Positions 1 to 37,013 of a stretch of DNA of 42,011 bases are shown here, one piece after another. The position numbers and the translations under genes are program-made. The stretch's first letter is position 1; every line of letters begins with the position of its first letter. The stretch is from an uncultured Burkholderiales bacterium (lineage in GTDB: Bacteria; Pseudomonadota; Gammaproteobacteria; Burkholderiales; Casimicrobiaceae): NCBI GenBank assembly GCA_937944385.1, contig CALDYQ010000016.1:1-42011 (forward strand). The letters are read 5' to 3'. The notes under the pieces were generated by a model, which saw nothing but the letters and a program-made list of their open reading frames with translations, made no database searches and was not told where the DNA came from.

Positions 1-1
1 C

Positions 2-196
2 ACGGTGATGGTTCGTGGCGAGACCGGTGCTGTCAATGCGGCGGTGCGCGCCGGCGCGGACGCGTGCGAGCGCGTGGGCGACGGCCTGGCGGCGGCACAC
101 ATCATTGCCCGTCCACATAGCGAGGTCGAGCAGATCCTGCCGGTGCAGCCAGATGCGGGCGGCAGCGGACGCGACGGCGACGTCGCGCAGAGCTAA
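2..196 (+). CDS. csoS1: CsoS1-type carboxysome shell protein, C-terminal part (cut by window edge)
   Basis: The reading frame is open at the left edge and ends at the stop 194-196. It encodes the second half of a BMC-domain hexameric shell protein. The stretch VRGETGAVNAAVRAGADAC followed by ERVGDGL, AAHIIARPHSEVEQILP is almost the CsoS1A/B/C consensus of alpha-carboxysomes (recognised from memory of the family). CsoS1 proteins tile the facets of the shell that encloses form IA Rubisco and carbonic anhydrase. Only about 64 residues lie in the window, ending with a short Gly/Asp-rich tail. It is followed after 48 bp by acRAF, as expected at the 3' end of a cso operon, so cbbLS, csoS2, csoSCA and csoS4 should lie to the left. 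The ATG at 8 is internal, not the start. Confidence 0.93.
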   Translation, partial: TVMVRGETGAVNAAVRAGADACERVGDGLAAAHIIARPHSEVEQILPVQPDAGGSGRDGDVAQS

Positions 197-244
197 AACA
201 CACCCCACGGGCTCGGAGTGACTTCATCAGGAAAGGTGCAAAGC

Positions 245-562
245 ATGGACACGCTTGCTGCAGATGCGATTCCGAAGGGCTGGAAAGTCATCGAGCGACC
301 GGCGGGCTTGTTCCGGCGCTACGACTTCGAGAGTTACGCTCAGACGCGGCTCTACCTCGAGCTTCTTGCGAAGGAGTCCGAGCGGGTTGGTCGTTATCCG
401 GATCTTTCGTTCGGTCCGCGACACGTCAACGTTACCATCGGGGTTGACGGCGAATCTGCCGCCTTGGCGTGCGCCCAAGCAATTGCGAGTGATGGCTACG
501 CCGAGCAGGCGCGCCGGGAAGGGCTGTCGAGTCTCGCCATCACTAGCGGAACGGCTGCATGA
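245..562 (+). CDS. acRAF: Alpha-carboxysome Rubisco assembly factor (pterin carbinolamine dehydratase-like)
   Basis: This 105-residue protein has the pterin-4a-carbinolamine dehydratase fold, in the divergent form linked to cso operons that serves as a Rubisco assembly chaperone. The ATG at 245 is chosen because AGGAAAGG lies 7 bp before it; a GTG at 218 would add nine residues. In true dehydratases a His-His-Pro motif forms the active site. Here the equivalent segment reads GRYPDLSFGPRHVNVTI, so the paired histidines are gone and catalysis on pterin is unlikely. That loss is typical of the carboxysome-linked members. It lies 48 bp after csoS1 and its stop overlaps the next start by ATGA, so it should be cotranscribed and translationally coupled. 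An active pterin dehydratase is the alternative, but residues and context argue against it. Confidence 0.88.
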   Translation: MDTLAADAIPKGWKVIERPAGLFRRYDFESYAQTRLYLELLAKESERVGRYPDLSFGPRHVNVTIGVDGESAALACAQAIASDGYAEQARREGLSSLAITSGTAA

Positions 563-789
563 AGTCCCAAGCCAGAATCGCTACACGAGGTGGAGCCGCC
601 AAGGCCACGAGCAAGAGCGCAGTCAAATCCGCGGCGAAACCAGCGGCCAGCCCGGCGGGCAAACAGGTGGCGAAGCCTGCGGCGAAGCCGGCGAGTGGTG
701 TCCCCGCGATGCCGGCAGTCGCACCCACCCCGACACGTCGGGCCGCGGCCAGCGGCCTCACCCCCACGCTCGCCGTCTGGCCCGATTGA
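559..789 (+). CDS. Small basic Ala/Lys/Pro-rich protein, hypothetical
   Basis: The frame encodes 76 residues and begins in an ATGA overlap with the acRAF stop, which suggests translational coupling. The protein is nearly all Ala, Lys, Pro, Ser and Arg, with KSAAKPAAS-like repeats resembling the histone H1-like tails of AlgP or PhaF proteins. It has no hydrophobic core and is predicted to be disordered and positively charged. I recognise no family. Its place at the end of a carboxysome operon suggests, without proof, a nucleic-acid or Rubisco-binding role. Repetitive GC-rich sequence can stay open by chance, so its reality rests mainly on the ATGA coupling and the cluster position. Confidence 0.5.
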   Translation: MKSQARIATRGGAAKATSKSAVKSAAKPAASPAGKQVAKPAAKPASGVPAMPAVAPTPTRRAAASGLTPTLAVWPD

Positions 790-1817: not shown

Positions 1818-1855
1818 ATGAGTTGACCGCCCCTGATCGCACGACCGGACAACTG

Positions 1856-4141
1856 ATGAGCCAGGCGAAGCCAGCCCCTGTCGCCCCGGTCCGCCGCGAC
1901 CTTCCGGCGAGCGGGCTCGCCGGATTCCGGCACTGGCGCGATGATCTCGCAGCTGGTGTCCAGGTCGCTCTCCTCTGGGCACCGTTCTCGCTGGGTGTGG
2001 CCATCGCCTCAGGGGCGCCTGCGGTTGCAGGGTTGATCTCGGCCATCGTCGCCGGCCTGCTCTATCCCCTGCTCGGCGGCTCGCATGTGACCGTGAGCGG
2101 TCCGGCGGCGGCACTTGCGCCCGTACTGCTTTGGGGCATGTTGCTGCTGGGCAGCGGCGACCTGGCCCGGGGCTATCCGCTCGTGCTCGTGGCCATCGTG
2201 TTCACTGGCGCCGTACAGATTCTGCTTTCGTGGCTTCGCGCCGGGCAATACGCGAGCATGCTCCCTTCAACCGTGATCGAGGCGATGCTCGCTGCGATCG
2301 GGGTCATGATCATCGTGCGACAGTTGCCCGCGCTCATCGGTGCGCCGTCGGTGCCTACAAAAGGGGTGGTCGATGCCTTGCGGCATCTGCCCGATCAGGC
2401 GGCGCAGATGAACTGGCCAGTTGCATTCATCGGTCTTGTCTCGCTCGGACTGATGTTCGCGCTGCGCAACCCGCGCACACAGTGGCTCCGAAAGATTCCC
2501 TCGGCCATCATCGTCGCACTGCTCGGGATTGCACTGGCCTGGGCCGCCGGGGTCGATGCAACGTATCTCGTCCGGATGCCGCAGAACATTCTCGACGGCT
2601 TGCACGCCCCGGCGTTCCGTGAATTCCTTGCCTCGCCGCAGCTTTGGCTTTCCATGGCGCTCGTGGTCTTCGTCTTCACGATGATCGACGGAGTGGAGTC
2701 GGTTGCGAGCGTCAAGGCGGTCGACAAAATCGATCCGTGGCGCAGGAAAAGCGACCCGAACAAGACGCTGCGTGCGATGGGCGTGTGCAACCTCACCTCG
2801 GGCATGCTTGGTGGTCTCACGGTCATCCCGAACGCCGTGCCAAGCCGCGCAAACATTGATGCCGGGGCACGTACGCTCTGGTCCAATTTCTGGAGCGGGC
2901 TGCTCCTCGTGATTTTCGCCGTGGCCTTGCCGTCGCTCATGGCGCGTATCCCGCTCGCGGCCATCGCGGGGCTGCTCATCTACATCGGCTGGCGGCTCTG
3001 TGAACCGGCGCTGTTCCGGCGCATGTTCTCGATCGGTCTCGACCGGTTCGTGGTGTTCGTCGGAACACTGGCCGCGATCCTGCTCACCGATCTGCTCGTG
3101 GGCATGCTGATCGGGGTTGCGATCGAGCTGCTCCTGCTGCTCTACCTGCTGATGCCCTCGGTGCGCTACGTGCTCACGGGGCGGCTCGACTGGGCGAGTG
3201 CCAATCGCCTGCTTTGGGAGAACTTCTCGGGCATGTTTCGCTCGCCAGTCATCCGCGAGCGCCTCGAAACCGAGAACGGCCGCCAACGGATGATCTTCAC
3301 CATGCGCTCGCTCGTGGGGTTCAATCTGCTGCAGCTGCAGAAGCGCATCGCGCGGCTACCGCATGACGCCGCGCTCACGCTGCGCTTCACCGAGTCGGCA
3401 CGCATCATCGACCACACTGCGGTGGAATACCTGCAGGAACTCGAGGAAGAGTTTGCAGCCGAAGGCCGCGCCTTCGCCATCGAGGGCGTGGAGAACTTCC
3501 AGCGCTTCTCGGCCCATCCGCTCGCCTCGTGCATGCAGGAAGCGAAGCTTGCGCGACAGGAGGCGGATCTCTCCGAGCGTGGCCAGGTGATCGCAGCAAT
3601 TGCAGCGCGTCACGGTCTCGCTTTCCGTGCCGAGACGATGGCGACCATCAATCGTCACGGCTTCATCTACCTGCAGCGCGGGGCGCAGCGCGAGGAGACG
3701 AACGCCGCCTTCGGGGCGTGGCAAGGCGGAACACTCCGCGTCTACGACTACAGCCATACCTCACCGCCAGACTACCACCTCGCGCATCGGCACACCCTGC
3801 TCTCGTTCGAATACCCGCCGGGTGAGCGGGGATGCGGTCCCTGCGCACTCACGCCGGGTCATTACCTCGAACGCTATCTCGTCCAGCTGCCGGAGATCGC
3901 CGCGGCTGAACTGCCCGCGGGCTATCGCGCCTACGGCGACCCCACCGCACTCGTGCGCCTGCTCACGCCCGAGGTGCGCGCCGCGATCGCGCCGCTCGGC
4001 GCGGTCTATGTCGAATTGCAGCCCGGCGCGATCCTGTTCTTCCGTCCGTTCGTCGCGCTCGAAAGCGACGAGGCGATAGAGGCCCTGATCGCGGCCTTCG
4101 CCAGCGTAGTGACTGCGGTCAGGAGCGCTCGCCCGGCGTGA
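1856..4141 (+). CDS. SulP-family anion transporter with STAS and extra C-terminal domain; candidate bicarbonate importer
   Basis: This 761-residue inner-membrane protein belongs to SulP (SLC26). About 12 hydrophobic segments span residues 25-420, including the family signature around HVTVSGPAAALAPVLL. A linker and a STAS domain follow (about 455-560, core ALTLRFTESARIIDHTAVEYL). A further soluble region of about 190 residues, from GQVIAAIAARHGLAFRAE to the end, is longer than in ordinary SulP proteins and is not a domain I recognise. BicA of cyanobacteria is a SulP bicarbonate transporter, and this gene lies between the carboxysome end and the Calvin operon, so HCO3- uptake is the likely job; sulfate transport is the alternative. 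The ATG at 1856 is preferred over the TTG at 1823, which would add 11 residues. The gene ends in a hairpin shared with the convergent cbbR relic. Confidence 0.88.
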   Translation: MSQAKPAPVAPVRRDLPASGLAGFRHWRDDLAAGVQVALLWAPFSLGVAIASGAPAVAGLISAIVAGLLYPLLGGSHVTVSGPAAALAPVLLWGMLLLGSGDLARGYPLVLVAIVFTGAVQILLSWLRAGQYASMLPSTVIEAMLAAIGVMIIVRQLPALIGAPSVPTKGVVDALRHLPDQAAQMNWPVAFIGLVSLGLMFALRNPRTQWLRKIPSAIIVALLGIALAWAAGVDATYLVRMPQNILDGLHAPAFREFLASPQLWLSMALVVFVFTMIDGVESVASVKAVDKIDPWRRKSDPNKTLRAMGVCNLTSGMLGGLTVIPNAVPSRANIDAGARTLWSNFWSGLLLVIFAVALPSLMARIPLAAIAGLLIYIGWRLCEPALFRRMFSIGLDRFVVFVGTLAAILLTDLLVGMLIGVAIELLLLLYLLMPSVRYVLTGRLDWASANRLLWENFSGMFRSPVIRERLETENGRQRMIFTMRSLVGFNLLQLQKRIARLPHDAALTLRFTESARIIDHTAVEYLQELEEEFAAEGRAFAIEGVENFQRFSAHPLASCMQEAKLARQEADLSERGQVIAAIAARHGLAFRAETMATINRHGFIYLQRGAQREETNAAFGAWQGGTLRVYDYSHTSPPDYHLAHRHTLLSFEYPPGERGCGPCALTPGHYLERYLVQLPEIAAAELPAGYRAYGDPTALVRLLTPEVRAAIAPLGAVYVELQPGAILFFRPFVALESDEAIEALIAAFASVVTAVRSARPA

Positions 4142-4166
4142 ATCTTTGCTGCGCAAGATTCACGCC
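4135..4166. terminator. Strong 12-bp stem hairpin between convergent genes, probable bidirectional terminator
   Basis: The arms GGCGTGAATCTT (4135-4146) and AAGATTCACGCC (4155-4166) are perfect inverse complements around an 8-nt loop. The stem covers the sulP stop codon on one side and the stop of the cbbR-like relic on the other. It has no clear T-tract, so termination, if any, may be partly Rho-dependent, or the hairpin may protect the mRNA 3' end. Confidence 0.55.
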
Positions 4167-4896
4167 CAGACCTCGATCAGTGCCGAAGCCTGTTCCAACA
4201 GGTAGAGCTGCATGGCCTCGGCCGCGGGCGAGAGTTCCAGATCCGGCAGGCCGACCACGTACCCACTGACGGATGAGTGGCAGGCCCGTGATGGCCAGGC
4301 TAGCCAGGCGACCACCTGAAAGTTCATGGCGAATCGCGCGTTCCGAAAGAAACGCAATGCCCATGCCCGCCATCGCGGCCAGCTTGATCGCCTCGTTGCT
4401 GGGCAGTTCCATCGCAATCCGTGGCTTGACACGGTGCTTCGCGAGCGGCCGTTCCATGGCCTGTCGTGTGCCCGATCCCTGCTCGCGCCCCACCCAAACG
4501 TCGTTCTTTTGCGCCGGGCGCAGCCGCGGTGAGGTCGCCCGCGCACGCGAGGGGTCTGGCGCGGCGACGATCGATAGCTGATGGGTAGCGAAGGGATGCG
4601 CTACGCACGGCCGGTGGTCAGGTACGCGCCCCAACTCAGCCAGAGATGGCCAGATCGATTTCCCAGAGTTCAAGCTGAACGAGGATCGTGTTACGGTTCT
4701 CGATCGATAGCGTGATCTCGATGCCCGGGTAAAGGCTTCGGAATTGCCTGAGCAGCATCGGCACGTAGTATTTGGCCGTGGTCACACAACCCAAACGAAG
4801 CCGTCTCAGACGCAAGCCGCGAGAGGCCGCCATCGCGTCTTCCATCCGCTCCAGTTGGGCGCGGATACGGGTTGCGTGACCCACGAGCGTTCGCGC
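4160..4896 (-). pseudogene. cbbR: Decayed LysR-family regulator (cbbR-like), N-terminal DNA-binding domain missing
   Basis: On the minus strand, pieces of one LysR effector-binding domain lie in order but in changing frames. They run from RIRAQLERMEDAM and LRLGCVTTAKYYVPMLLRQF through VQLELWEIDLAISG (stop near 4636), GRVPDHRPCVAHPFATHQL, RPLACAGDLTAAAPGAKE, VWVGREQGSGTRQAMER, MELPSNEAIKLAAMAGMGIA and VVGLPDLELSPAAEAMQLYL. The frame must change at least four times (near 4640, 4565, 4500 and 4265). The winged-helix domain, about the first 60 codons, is absent: homology stops at about 4897, where cbbX homology begins on the other strand. The surviving domain resembles the intact CbbR at 5147-6076 but is clearly a different paralog. 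It cannot make a working regulator. Confidence 0.85.
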
Positions 4897-5139
4897 TGCC
4901 GCTTTGCCCCCGAGGCGAGTGAAGCGCGCGACTGCTACATCGATCTACGAGTGACGCAGCCCCATTTCGCCAATTCGCGCTCGATCGCGCGCTCGATCCG
5001 CAATGCCCTCGACCGTGCGCGCTTGCGGCAGGCGTCGCGTCTGTTCGCTGAGCGCGACCGCATCCTGGATGCCGAAGCGCTCACCACCATCGAAGCGTCG
5101 GATCTGCTCGCTAGCCGGGTTTTTCAGTCCGACGGCTGA
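4897..5139 (+). pseudogene. cbbX: C-terminal fragment of cbbX (red-type Rubisco activase)
   Basis: The frame from about 4897 to the TGA at 5137-5139 encodes about 80 residues matching the C-terminus of the AAA+ protein CbbX. Recognisable pieces are RFAPEASEA, TQPHFANSRSI, SIRNALDRARLRQASRLFAE, LTTIEASDLLASRVF (compared with proteobacterial CbbX from memory). The Walker A and B motifs and the rest of the ATPase core, about 230 residues, are missing, and no start codon with a ribosome-binding site precedes the fragment. A 12-bp near-duplication (TCGCGCTCGATC then GCGCGCTCGATC, about 4978-5001) inserts four residues, giving RSIARSIRN. CbbX reactivates form IC/ID Rubisco and is normally encoded right after cbbLS; no such genes are present here. 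Confidence 0.85.
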
Positions 5140-5146
5140 CGGTCGA

Positions 5147-6076
5147 TCAAAAGACGAGCCGCCCGGCGAATCGCACGGCGAGCAGTGCCTCGGCGTTCTC
5201 GAGCACGAAGTAGCGAAACGCCTCGGCGGGTGGGGAGAGCAGCTTCGACAGCATGTGCACGCAGTTCCAGGCGCGCACGACCGGGGTTCCCTCTGCGGTC
5301 ACGATGATCAGCTCGCCGTGGTCGAGCTCCTGCCCGATCGTATGCAGTGAGACGAAGCCCAGGCCGAGCCCGGCGGCGACCGCCTGTTTGATGAGCTCAT
5401 TGCTCGGCACCTCCATGCTGATGCGCGGCGTGATGCCGTGCCGATCCATGAACTCTTCGAAGGCTCGGCGCGTTCCCGACCCTTTCTCGCGCAGGATGAA
5501 AGGATAGGCGGCAAGCGTCGAAGGCGCAGGGTGCCCTACATTCTCGAGAGGATGTCCGCGCGGCGCGATGAACACATGCGGATGGGCCGCGAACGGCTCT
5601 GCGCGGGTTGCGAGCTCCTTCGGCGGGCGGCCCATGATCGCGATATCGACCTCGTTCTGCGCGAGCGCCTGAACCAGTTGCTCTCGGTTGCCGAGCGTGA
5701 GGCGGACATCGACGCCGGCATGCTCGCGCCGGAAATCGGCCACGAGACGTGGGACGAAGTAGGTCGCGGTACTCACCATGCCCACGGTCAGCAGCCCAGC
5801 CTCCTGGCGCGACAAGCGCGCTGCTGCATCTTGGGCGTCCTTGAGCGTGGCGAGGATACGCCGCGCGTAGACCAGCATGTATTCGCCGCCCGTGGTCAGC
5901 GAAATCTTTCTGCCCTCACGCTCGAAAAGCGGCAGTCCCACGTGACTTTCGAGCTCGCGGATCTGCATCGTGACGGCGGGCGGCGTCAGATGCAGCGCTT
6001 CGGCCGCGCGGGCGAAGCTCATGTGCTTGGCCACCTCCGAGAAGACACGAAGCTGACGGAAGGTGGCATTCTTCAT
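5147..6076 (-). CDS. cbbR: LysR-type regulator of the Calvin cycle operon, CbbR
   Basis: This intact 309-residue LysR-type activator has an N-terminal winged helix-turn-helix (residues 5-62, with ATFRQLRVFSEVAKHMSFAR and TPPAVTMQIRELE), a linker helix and a two-lobed effector domain from about residue 90. Conserved CbbR-like segments include VSTATYFVPRLV, DIAIMGRPP, REKGSGTRRAFEEFM and MEVPSNELIKQAVAAGLGLG. CbbR proteins sense metabolites such as RuBP, phosphoenolpyruvate or NADPH and activate cbb transcription. It is divergent from cbbY with 101 bp between the start codons, and that gap holds a palindrome fitting a LysR operator, so it probably controls both the cbb operon and itself. It lies seven bases from the cbbX remnant. 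Confidence 0.93.
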   Translation of the reverse strand: MKNATFRQLRVFSEVAKHMSFARAAEALHLTPPAVTMQIRELESHVGLPLFEREGRKISLTTGGEYMLVYARRILATLKDAQDAAARLSRQEAGLLTVGMVSTATYFVPRLVADFRREHAGVDVRLTLGNREQLVQALAQNEVDIAIMGRPPKELATRAEPFAAHPHVFIAPRGHPLENVGHPAPSTLAAYPFILREKGSGTRRAFEEFMDRHGITPRISMEVPSNELIKQAVAAGLGLGFVSLHTIGQELDHGELIIVTAEGTPVVRAWNCVHMLSKLLSPPAEAFRYFVLENAEALLAVRFAGRLVF

Positions 6077-6177: not shown

Positions 6178-6984
6178 ATGGCCGCCGCATCTGTTTCGAC
6201 GAAGCACTCCCCCAACTCTCTGGGCGCCTTGATCTTCGATGTCGATGGCACGCTGGCCGACACCGAAGAGGTTCACCGAACCGCCTTCAACCGTGCCTTT
6301 GCCGAGCATGGACTCGGCTGGAACTGGTCGGTCGCGCAGTACCGTGAGCTCCTTCTCGTGGCCGGGGGAAAAGAACGCATCCGCGCTTTTTGGCGTTCAG
6401 TCGACCCTCGGTCGGCCGAAGCCTCCGACGCCGAGCGCTTTGTGGCGGAATTGCATGCCGCGAAGACACGTCATTACGAAGCGCTGCTCGCCTCGGGCGG
6501 TATCCCGCTGCGGCCGGGTGTGCTGAGGCTGATCGAGGCGGCGCGCAAGGCCGGCATGCCGATCGGGATTGCCACCACGACGACGCCGGCCAACCTCGAC
6601 GCGCTTCTCAAGCCCAAGCTCGGTGCGGACTGGCGTTCGCTTTTCGCGGTCATCCGCGATGGCGCCACCGATCCGATCAAGAAGCCCGCGCCCGACGTCT
6701 ATCTCTCGGTCCTGCGCGTGCTCGGGCTGCCGGCGCATCGTGCCATCGCTTTCGAAGACACGCACAACGGCCTCACCGCAGCCACCGCCGCGGGCCTTCC
6801 GGTGCTCGTGGCGCCCACCGACTACTCCGCGGGTCAGGACTTTTCGCAGGCGCTAATCGTCCTGCCTCACCTCGGCGACCCGGACGTGCCGCTGGCGCAG
6901 CCGCTGCCCGTGACCGGGCGACGCTGGGTCGATCTCGAGTTCCTCGAGGCGCTGCATCACGGTGCGATCATCGAAGCTTCCTGA
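6178..6984 (+). CDS. cbbY: CbbY, xylulose-1,5-bisphosphate phosphatase (HAD family)
   Basis: This 268-residue HAD-superfamily phosphatase has the nucleophile motif [11 protein letters not shown] (Asp21, acid/base Asp23), a cap domain with the CbbY-type [11 protein letters not shown] segment, the motif II region [10 protein letters not shown], the motif III lysine in [14 protein letters not shown] and motif [13 protein letters not shown]. CbbY removes xylulose-1,5-bisphosphate, a misfire product that inhibits Rubisco, and is typically found beside red-type Rubisco genes. The ATG at 6178 is preceded by TGGAG; upstream TTG or GTG starts (6112, 6151) are less likely. It opens the cbb operon, divergent from cbbR. 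The context argues for CbbY rather than beta-phosphoglucomutase, a relative. Confidence 0.87.
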
Positions 6985-26304: not shown

Positions 26305-26391
26305 GCCGGGGTGGCGGAATTGGTAGACGCAGCGGATTCAAAATCCGCCGGTGGCAACACTGTGGGGGTTCGAGTCCCCCCGCCGGCACCA
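26305..26391 (+). tRNA. tRNA-Leu(CAA)
   Basis: This 87-nt gene folds as a type II tRNA with encoded CCA. The anticodon arm is GCGGA-UUCAAAA-UCCGC, anticodon CAA, reading UUG. The variable arm is the stem CGGUG-GCAA-CACUG, and the T arm GGGGG-UUCGAGU-CCCCC is perfect. The D arm GAAUUGGUAGA loop is typical of leucine tRNAs. In the acceptor stem, positions 6 and 67 are both G, a mismatch inside an otherwise paired helix. Confidence 0.95.
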
Positions 26392-26581
26392 GCCGCGTAG
26401 CGGTCCTCGGTGGCTTCTCTCTGACACAGCGGCTCCCGCGGGAGCCGCGTCGCTTTCGAGCATCCCGCAACTCGCCCCCCGAAATCGACGTTTCGTCGCG
26501 CCACCGGCGACGCGCTTCGCCCTTAGCGTCGACAATTCATTTCGATGGCTCGCGCGAGCCACGAATCTGAGGAGTCGTTTT

Positions 26582-27571
26582 ATGTTCGCATCGACCCGTT
26601 CCCGGCTGGCCACGACGCTGATCGGCCTTGCCACGCCCCTCGTGGCGATGGCCGCCCCATCGGCCGCCCCATCGGCCGCACCATCGGCCGCCCCATCGGC
26701 CGCCCCATCCGCCGCCACACCCGCGGCCTTTGCCAAGAGCCCGGCAACGATGTCAGCCGCTGCACCCGCCGCGCCCCCGGGCGCGACCAAGAAGATCGCG
26801 GTGCTCGCGGCCGTCGGTGACCAGATGCAGCTCGTTCGCCGCCGTCTGGGGGTGGGCTCGAATCTCGAGCCGTTCGTGCGCCAGTGGGTGACGGTCCCCG
26901 GCCAGACGCTCAACAAGATGGTGCTGCGCGGCATGGATCAGGCGATCTCGGCCGAGTACCCGAACGCCGAGGTGCTCTACCTGATGCTCATGCCGGACGC
27001 AAAGGAGCGCGAGTTGCGTGCGGATCAGCGCGAGGAAGCGGCCTTCCGCCGGGCGATCGCGATGCTCGAGCCGATCGAGACACGGAAGGGTTGGGACGAG
27101 ATCTACATCGTCTCCCCCAAGTGGCTGTTCCCGGAGAACGGGGGTATGGCGAGCAAGCTCACTGGCATCGGCATCTTCATCCAGCCAATCGAAAGCGCGA
27201 GGAACGCCGAGGAGCTGTTCGAAAGCGGTCTCGCGGTAGATGTGGACGGGGAGCAGGTGCGGGACTTGGGCAAGTTCAAGCAGTCGCGCAGCCAGACCTA
27301 CGTGGCCCCCTTTTTCTACATGAAGGTCACGGTGCTCGACGCGAAGACGCTGCGCGTGATCCGCACCGACGAGCGCTACGACTTCCGCCGCCTGATCAAC
27401 AGCGATTCGACCGCGCTCAACGTGGCGGCATCGATCCCGCCGGACATGCTGGCGGACCAGCTGACCCAGTTCGTCGAGGCATCGGCCCGCCGACTGGTGG
27501 TGGATCGTCCGGGAACGATCGACATCGGACCGCTACGCGCAACGCCTGCGCCCGTTCCGACGAAACCCTAG
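26582..27571 (+). CDS. Periplasmic protein of unknown function with an Ala-Pro-Ser repeat
   Basis: This 329-residue protein has a signal peptide (RLATTLIGLATPLVAMA, residues 8-24), a low-complexity Ala/Pro/Ser segment encoded by the 12-bp repeat at 26651-26710, and a globular part from ATKKIAVLAAVGDQMQL on. The globular part has segments such as YPNAEVLYLMLMPD, EIYIVSPKWLFPENGG and DERYDFRRLINSDSTALNVA, and no family I can name. GAGGAG before the ATG at 26582 fixes the start, although the frame is open further upstream, through the end of the tRNA gene. The neighbours tRNA-Leu and queA give no functional clue. Confidence 0.8.
   Translation: MFASTRSRLATTLIGLATPLVAMAAPSAAPSAAPSAAPSAAPSAATPAAFAKSPATMSAAAPAAPPGATKKIAVLAAVGDQMQLVRRRLGVGSNLEPFVRQWVTVPGQTLNKMVLRGMDQAISAEYPNAEVLYLMLMPDAKERELRADQREEAAFRRAIAMLEPIETRKGWDEIYIVSPKWLFPENGGMASKLTGIGIFIQPIESARNAEELFESGLAVDVDGEQVRDLGKFKQSRSQTYVAPFFYMKVTVLDAKTLRVIRTDERYDFRRLINSDSTALNVAASIPPDMLADQLTQFVEASARRLVVDRPGTIDIGPLRATPAPVPTKP
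26651..26710 (+). repeat. Five copies of a 12-bp coding repeat
   Basis: The unit GCCGCCCCATCG occurs at 26651-26662, 26663-26674, 26675-26686 (one change), 26687-26698 and 26699-26710 (one change). It encodes Ala-Ala-Pro-Ser, giving a flexible linker right after the signal peptide. Such repeats readily gain or lose units by slippage without changing the frame. Confidence 0.92.
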
Positions 27572-35519: not shown

Positions 35520-36605
35520 CTAACCGACCGACGGCTTTTGCCGCTCGTACCACGGACGTGTTGCGTTGACCACGCGCACGACGAGCAGCATCACCGGGAC
35601 CTCGATCAGTACGCCCACGACGGTTGCAAGCGCCGCCCCGGACTCGAACCCGAACAGACTGATCGCAGCGGCCACCGCAAGCTCGAAGAAGTTCGACGCG
35701 CCGATGAGCGCCGAAGGGCAGGCGACCGAGTGCTTCTCGCCGAGCACACGGTTCAATCCGTAGGCGAGTGCCGAATTGAAGAACACCTGGATCAGGATGG
35801 GCACTGCCAGCATCGCGATCACCAGCGGCTGGCGCAGGATCTGCTCGCCCTGAAAGGCAAAGAGCAACACGAGGGTGATCAGCAGCGCAGCCATGGACCA
35901 AGGCCCGACGCGTGCAAGCAGACGGTCGAGCGCAGCCTGACCGCCACGCGCAAGCACCTGGGCGCGTATGACCTGCGCGATGATCACCGGGATCACGATG
36001 TACATGACCACGGAGATCAGCAACGTATCCCAGGGCACCGTGATCGAGGAGAGCCCGAGCAGCAGCCCGACGATCGGTGCGAAGGCAAAGATCATGATCG
36101 TATCGTTGAGCGCGACTTGACCGAGCGTGAAATACGGATCTCCGTTGGTGAGGCGAGACCAGACGAAGACCATTGCCGTGCAGGGCGCAGCGGCCAGAAG
36201 GATGAGCCCGGCGATGTAGCTGTCGAGCTGATCTTGGGGCAGATAAGGGGCGAAGACCTGCCGGATGAAGATCCAGCCGAGCAGCGCCATCGAGAAGGGC
36301 TTCACCGCCCAGTTGATGAAGAGCGTCACCCCGATGCCGCGGGCATGGTGGCGCACCTGCCCCATCGATCGAAAATCGATCTTGAGCAGCATCGGGATGA
36401 TCATCACCCAGATCAGCACCCCCACAGGCAGGTTGACCTGGGCGACCTCCATCTTGCCGATGGCCTGCACCGGGCCCGGTAGCAGTTGCCCGAGGCCGAT
36501 CCCGAGCAGGATGCACAACGCCACCCACACGGTAAGGTAGCGCTCGAAAAGATTCATCGAGTTGGCGGTCGAATGTTTCTGTGTCGCGGCGTCTGTGCTG
36601 GACAT
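35520..36605 (-). CDS. acr3: ACR3-family arsenite efflux carrier
   Basis: This 361-residue protein with ten transmembrane segments belongs to the ACR3 branch of the bile/arsenite/riboflavin transporter superfamily and exports arsenite. The catalytic cysteine of the fourth helix is Cys142 in AAAPCTAMVFVW; the NDTIMIFAFAPIVG and IGASNFFELAVAAAISLFG stretches and the glutamate in GVLIEVPVMLLVVRVV are as in characterised members. No arsR, arsC or arsH gene lies beside it, unlike classical ars operons, so its control is unclear. It is transcribed ahead of the ArsB/NhaD-type permease. Confidence 0.94.
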   Translation of the reverse strand: MSSTDAATQKHSTANSMNLFERYLTVWVALCILLGIGLGQLLPGPVQAIGKMEVAQVNLPVGVLIWVMIIPMLLKIDFRSMGQVRHHARGIGVTLFINWAVKPFSMALLGWIFIRQVFAPYLPQDQLDSYIAGLILLAAAPCTAMVFVWSRLTNGDPYFTLGQVALNDTIMIFAFAPIVGLLLGLSSITVPWDTLLISVVMYIVIPVIIAQVIRAQVLARGGQAALDRLLARVGPWSMAALLITLVLLFAFQGEQILRQPLVIAMLAVPILIQVFFNSALAYGLNRVLGEKHSVACPSALIGASNFFELAVAAAISLFGFESGAALATVVGVLIEVPVMLLVVRVVNATRPWYERQKPSVG

Positions 36606-37013
36606 GATTGTGGGGCAAAAGACCGACGAAATTTGGGAAAACAGCTTTGAATCGTAATGCTGGCAGATGACGCGCGTTCGATGCGAGGGGCAGCCGTGCC
36701 CGGTGGATTGACTTCGGGGCGCGTCAGGCCATGCGGACGGCGTTGCCGATCACGACGTTGCGGTGAGCCCTGAAGGTGCAGACCATCGCGCAGACGATCG
36801 ATCGTGCAGGCCGTCGCGCAGATCATCGCGCAGGCCATGCATGCATGCATGCCGGCCGCCGTTGTCCCCGACGCTTTCGAGCGCGACTCACCCCGGTCTG
36901 CATGCTCGGCAGCCCATGATGCAGGCCCGAGTATCCGCAGAGCGCGCGATCGCGGTCGGCAGCCGCACCGCTTCATCGAGGGCCGACCACTCCATCGAAG
37001 GCAACGGAGGACT
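36606..37013. other. Intergenic region without a convincing gene; short repeats
   Basis: This stretch of about 400 bp between acr3 and the tRNA pair has no reading frame with convincing coding features. It holds (ATGC)4 at 36837-36852, recurring ATCGCGCAG words at 36785-36835 and a GATCGATC palindrome near 36796. The acr3 promoter should lie at its left end (minus strand), but no clear boxes or arsR-type operator were found. Confidence 0.55.

Follow-up and report, generated by a model that had tools for sequence, protein, structure and literature searches.

Introduction

Loss of Rubisco forms and their exchange between bacteria are established, and exchange is usually inferred from trees. In the form IC (red-type) locus, which we compare here in three genomes (G017, G042 and G053) and in Comamonadaceae, a regulator gene, cbbR, is transcribed away from cbbL, cbbS and cbbX. 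In mixotrophic proteobacteria CbbX is paired with form IC Rubisco (PMC5437159), in agreement with our reading of the locus described below. Activase homologues also belong to some carboxysome clusters (PMC5437159), and CbbX is widespread in the alpha-cyanobacteria as well (PMC9833100). The original prediction, which confined CbbX to red-type Rubisco, is thus too broad on this point.

The window, by which we mean the whole stretch of DNA analysed (42 011 nucleotides), contains within 980 bp the stumps of two genes that match the form IC locus in gene order, orientation and sequence kinship. Unlike in that locus, the beginning of cbbR is missing, as are the promoter, cbbL, cbbS and the greater part of cbbX, what is left of cbbR is broken, and a second, intact cbbR lies on the 3' side of cbbX. 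We read the 980 bp as two pseudogenes left over from a form IC unit, with cbbR divergent from cbbL-cbbS-cbbX, that was cut by one deletion, and place the probability of this reading at about 0.78. Both stumps lose their 5' parts at one point and stand back to back as in intact form IC loci, which supports it; counting against it are the CbbX end, which is barely decayed, and the junction, which is known from a draft assembly of 98 contigs. A physical scar of this kind assigns a single loss to a definite site, and it points to a red-type unit having formerly stood beside the carboxysomal one. It makes the order of events testable in a small genus and reveals no new mechanism; we regard it as a clean yet modest example, a genomic fossil of an ordinary kind. 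A search of the literature (titles and the openings of abstracts) found no published account of a comparable scar, nor any paper joining Casimicrobiaceae and RuBisCO.

Genome context of the window

The window is the entire contig C16 of a genome of 2.54 Mb that is 98.6% complete and is divided into 98 contigs. A single Rubisco large subunit was found in this genome, on contig C74, where it is followed by the small subunit and cso genes; a search with RuBisCO_large gave this one match at E 0.001. We call the enzyme form IA from its carboxysome operon and from similarity, as the models used name no Rubisco form. The csoS1 gene is split exactly across two contig ends, with codons 1–51 at the end of C74 and codons 53 onwards at the start of C16 (window positions 1–198, plus strand; NCBIfam CsoS1 positions 47–93), so that C74 and C16 abut within the carboxysome operon. 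On the copies of these genes in Casimicrobiaceae bacterium SKYG17 (G015), a member of the same genus, NCBIfam models confirmed the carboxysome shell carbonic anhydrase, CsoS4, peptide B and CsoS1.

No red-type cbbL, and hence no form IC locus, was found in the genome. The search for a second CbbX likewise found none (three weaker AAA+ matches score at most 28.6 bits), and no intact version of either stump turned up elsewhere in the genome. That the cell had been left with the carboxysomal enzyme, as first proposed, is borne out by this search.

To the left of the scar is a gene for a SulP-type anion transporter (1823–4141, plus strand; Pfam Sulfate_transp, E 5e-53), which is 82% identical to its SKYG17 counterpart in the equivalent place and presumably carries bicarbonate. 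To the right is the intact cbbR (5147–6076, minus strand), here called R1, which has HTH_1 and LysR_substrate domains and is of the Comamonadaceae type. Its top NCBIfam match is a CbbR model, with 297 bits against a model cut-off of 450; it is 81% identical to the SKYG17 protein and 67–72% identical to those of the other 79 loci kept. Divergent from R1 is a HAD-family hydrolase gene (6178–6984, plus strand), which we take to be cbbY from gene order and general knowledge, and which is 58% identical to the SKYG17 gene in the same place.

Structure of the two stumps

The broken CbbR occupies positions 4163–4881 of the minus strand and is split across three reading frames. The first fragment (4636–4881) carries the start of the effector domain and ends in a TGA codon; the second (4260–4643) continues this domain and has frame changes on both sides; the third (4163–4261) is the C-terminal end. 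The gene has thus undergone at least two frameshifts. Pfam recognizes LysR_substrate in the middle reading frame (E 6e-20) and finds no HTH match; codons 1–62 or 1–69 are absent. Taking a CbbR to be a protein with HTH_1 and the LysR substrate domain in one frame, the neighbouring R1 is a CbbR and the broken gene is not.

The broken gene has also decayed. It deviates at 12 of 45 conserved columns in an alignment of 127 rows, from which two distant LysR rows had been dropped beforehand, while only 0–2 conserved columns deviate in five intact regulators (those of G017, G042 and G053, one Curvibacter regulator of the same clade, and R1; four of the five are members of the clade to which the broken gene belongs). 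One row, L091_2839p, deviates more (32 of 46), and this LysR protein is just 29% identical to R1; the next most deviant rows reach 7 of 45. The GC3 of the broken gene is lower than that of all 360 overlapping stretches of equal length from ten intact window genes. Its GC3 minus GC2 is low and within range, 17 of the 360 stretches being equally low.

The CbbX end comprises about the last 80 codons of the gene (4888–5139, plus strand). Positions 210–284 of the 284 in TIGR02880 match 4888–5124 (E 8e-23, 81 bits), and AAA_lid_6 is also recognized (E 1e-8). A full CbbX is an AAA+ protein above the curated TIGR02880 cut-off of 459 bits, and the stump falls far below it; the ATPase motifs presumably precede the portion that is matched. 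In the numbering of the 323-residue reading frame of G042, about 246 codons are missing. None of the 40 CbbX proteins compared is more than 72% identical to the CbbX end, which contains a four-residue in-frame insertion (4975–4986), a near-tandem repeat that is absent from the 40 others aligned. Its decay is slight, with one of 27 conserved columns deviating and GC3 within range.

CbbR homology reaches about 4881, or 4902 if weaker residues are counted, which places the junction at about 4882–4900. Some 6 bp separate the CbbR and CbbX homologies, which both point outward from it, and only 7 bp lie between the CbbX stop (5139) and the end of the intact, convergent R1 (5147). The original prediction thus described this region well: it had a minus-strand LysR effector domain with several frameshifts, the last 80 codons of cbbX on the plus strand and a junction at about 4897. 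It had also proposed one deletion joining codon ∼60–65 of cbbR to codon ∼230 of cbbX, and the orientation and missing ends of the stumps fit an internal deletion of about 3 kb.

A complete unit would formerly have stood between sulP and R1, and the one deletion that made the junction would have taken everything from the beginning of cbbR through the divergent promoter, cbbL and cbbS, together with roughly three quarters of cbbX. From the coordinates, the loss would come to about 3.0 kb if the unit was arranged as in G042, or to about 4 kb, including a second cbbR, if it was arranged as in Curvibacter. The stumps are most likely now functionless. Carbon fixation would proceed through the form IA enzyme, whose carboxysome operon lies just upstream, while R1 and the remaining cbb operon lie downstream.

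Relationship of the stumps to form IC Rubisco

A CbbX match is present in 14 of the 64 genomes of the family, the window stump included. If a weak second match in G030 (235 bits, in an 895-codon frame) is set aside, each of the 13 other places has a Rubisco large subunit on its contig no more than 0.7 kb away. Twelve were fetched (all but that of G051), and in all of them the neighbouring cbbL is form IC-like, i.e. 54–58% identical to the form IA query or 70–95% identical to the enzyme of G042. Among 399 genomes sampled from the order, 88 bear a form IA enzyme (a few of these at 70–79% identity), and 80 of the 88 were searched for CbbX. The search gave ten matches, eight of them above the cut-off; the two below it (G333 and G361) reach no more than 238 bits, in reading frames 887 and 1104 codons long. 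We had considered CbbX as part of the carboxysome cluster and set this aside, since all eight above the cut-off adjoin a form IC cbbL.

The broken CbbR matches eight of 120 regulators best; their summed bits are 223–236, and no other regulator exceeds 185. These eight are the regulators of G042, G017 and G053 and five second regulators from Curvibacter-type loci; together with the broken CbbR they form a clade, here called R2, of nine of the 45 tree rows (SH-aLRT 97). Its members in G017 (a genome of the same genus), G042 and G053 directly face a form IC cbbL. R2 was also traced by sequence across the order, where seven of the 399 genomes reach the threshold; this trace was discarded as uninformative on the link between R2 and form IC, as a form IA cbbL is present in four of the seven loci fetched.

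The placement of the CbbX end is less settled. In the full tree it groups with CbbX of the Comamonadaceae type (24 rows, 99/96), whereas with its own columns only it adjoins a set of 14 rows that holds CbbX of Casimicrobiaceae and others (93/82). AU tests do not reject its grouping with G042/G053 (p = 0.20, or 0.39 with L161) or with three Curvibacter-type loci (p = 0.42). Of the trees originally proposed for both stumps, that of the regulator puts the broken gene in R2 and that of CbbX differs with the columns used. On these comparisons of sequences and gene neighbours a form IC origin of both stumps is well supported. That both come from one source locus is likely; it is not proven, because the CbbX placement shifts between trees and the grouping with G042/G053 is not rejected.

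Comparison with SKYG17

SKYG17 shares the block of form IA Rubisco, carboxysome genes, sulP, cbbR and cbbY and is collinear with C74–C16 over about 50 kb, through cbbL, the carboxysome genes, sulP, cbbR, cbbY, rpe, fbp, prk, tkt and the sox region as far as the window's end (the gene names rpe, fbp, prk, tkt, gap and soxC were checked). The collinearity breaks at the scar, at a 1 kb bin at 36–37 kb and near 27 kb of the window, where SKYG17 has about 3 kb extra. Besides the scar, the bin at 36000–37000 is the sole one without a collinear best match in SKYG17; near the place equivalent to the extra 3 kb, the window has a reading frame with a Ser-Ala-Ala-Pro repeat (26351–27571).

The gap between sulP and cbbR is about 1 kb in the window, including the scar, and about 400 bp in SKYG17, which has no stump there; no trace of cbbR or cbbX was detected in these 400 bp. 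A second cbbX stump in SKYG17 was also sought and dismissed, with no CbbX at E 1e-15 and none detected in the intergenic stretch. As no remnant is found in this gap, the form IC unit may never have been ancestral, and with just two genomes compared the direction of change is not fixable. Either an ancestral unit was wholly lost in SKYG17, or the unit arrived later in the lineage of the window and was then partly lost.

R1 loci and the origin of the proposed scar

We fetched 117 R1 loci (80 of 255 relatives, nine of 11 further matches with the genome itself and SKYG17 set aside, and 28 more of the 30 listed among 59) and removed 16 duplicates, leaving 101 distinct loci, SKYG17 included. R1 directly faces cbbY in 52 of these, a form IC cbbL in 42, another large subunit in five and a contig edge or unknown in two. 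The original prediction had pointed to the intact cbbR and to a cbbY, usually a partner of red-type Rubisco, as remaining next door. As R1 most often faces cbbY with no cbbLSX present, the neighbouring cbbY is no sign of form IC loss, and we do not consider cbbY and the intact R1 to be relics of a lost form IC operon.

CbbX is found on the 3' side of R1 in none of the 101 loci, and in 97 of them the sequence visible on that side is 1 kb or longer; as a control, the same search recovers the stump in the window. Where CbbX is present in these loci it is thus on the other side of R1. Relatives keeping an intact cbbR-cbbLSX-cbbR-cbbY order had been expected. None was found among the 101 loci, and in SKYG17 nothing recognizable lies between sulP and cbbR; the window does have what a remnant of a form IC cbbR-cbbLSX unit would leave, pieces of its two end genes lying back to back and correctly oriented, and a relative with the intact unit at the same place is not among the loci surveyed.

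In five of the 101 loci the two regulators are adjacent, R2 immediately behind R1 (order R2-R1), and cbbL or cbbY occupies the far side of R1. These Curvibacter-type loci have both regulator types, as in the window, in tandem; unlike in the window, R2 is intact and there is no CbbX between R2 and R1. One of them, L185 (a Curvibacter MAG; L247 is identical), resembles the window further in having no cbbLSX between R1 and cbbY. In L185 R2-R1 faces cbbY, and there is also no fbp between cbbY and prk; by its gene order this locus would be a separate form IC loss beside the same regulator R1.

The window has the order broken R2, CbbX end, R1, cbbY. Set against the orders in the survey, a single deletion needs an unseen precursor, R2-cbbLSX-R1-cbbY, and, given the R2-R1 order of the five loci, the deletion must have been preceded by a cassette insertion or a duplication. 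The precursor could have arisen if an R2-cbbLSX cassette resembling those of G017, G042 and G053 was inserted, or if R1-cbbLSX was duplicated in tandem.

The duplication route is a variant within our main reading, and its odds are counted there; the scar would still be of form IC, and a copy of R1 would have been lost too. An ancestral locus of the Curvibacter type, R2-R1-cbbLSX-cbbY, would have become R2-R1-cbbLSX-R1-cbbLSX-cbbY, and two deletions would have left the broken R2 with the CbbX end, followed by R1-cbbY. The five loci with R2 directly behind R1 favour this, as does L185, which retains R2-R1-cbbY without cbbLSX. Relatives of all three, R1, R2 and the CbbX end, occur in Curvibacter-type loci, in keeping with the AU result for the three of these tested, and the short gap between the CbbX and R1 stops would suit a duplication junction. 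However, three events are required, the duplicated locus was not seen, and SKYG17 has the same R1-cbbY with no R2 there. We hold this route to be possible, and would not bet on it.

A broader proposal concerns the 3' flank of R1, where the 101 loci have a form IA cbbL in five cases, a low-identity (form II-like) cbbL in one and carboxysome genes in two (SKYG17 is counted in both the five and the two). This flank might be a recurrent docking place at which Rubisco cassettes (form II, form IC, and form IA either alone or with its carboxysome) are exchanged while R1-cbbY-fbp-prk stays constant, with the window caught just after a form IC discard beside its resident carboxysomal cassette. We offer this as a speculation, somewhat more doubtful than the duplication route.

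The stumps could instead have arrived as a transferred fragment, DNA already truncated before it entered by recombination, in a lineage that never had a working form IC enzyme here. The lack of any trace in SKYG17, from the same genus, and the Comamonadaceae type of R1 would suit such an arrival, which, however, requires an already deleted donor, and there is none among the 101 R1 loci; we consider it unlikely. Least probable, by a clear step, is a misassembly or chimeric join with fragments of another organism from the sample: the assembly is a draft and the CbbX end has no close match among the proteins compared, but the flanks are collinear with SKYG17 on both sides, the frame changes and decay of the broken CbbR would not result from joining two living genes, and the search of the genome found neither piece intact. 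The deletion scar thus remains our preferred reading.

Further observations on the carboxysome cluster

The form IA cbbL on C74 is 94% identical to its counterpart in G217 (contig C88, locus L088), which belongs to another family, and equally to that of SKYG17 (contig C170), from the same genus. These identities suggest that the carboxysome cluster has been transferred between families. The two members of the genus with form IA, that of the window and SKYG17, have genomes of 2.5–2.6 Mb, and the other 15 members searched have genomes of 3.2–4.7 Mb. Between the acRAF and nudix genes of the window is a short Ala/Lys/Pro-rich frame (559–789, plus strand) that ends in VWPD. The same slot is filled in SKYG17 (L049, 8554–8811) and G217 (L088, ∼3400–3750, minus strand) by frames ending in VWPD and IWPD, respectively, and the frame is possibly an undescribed small basic protein of the carboxysome operon.
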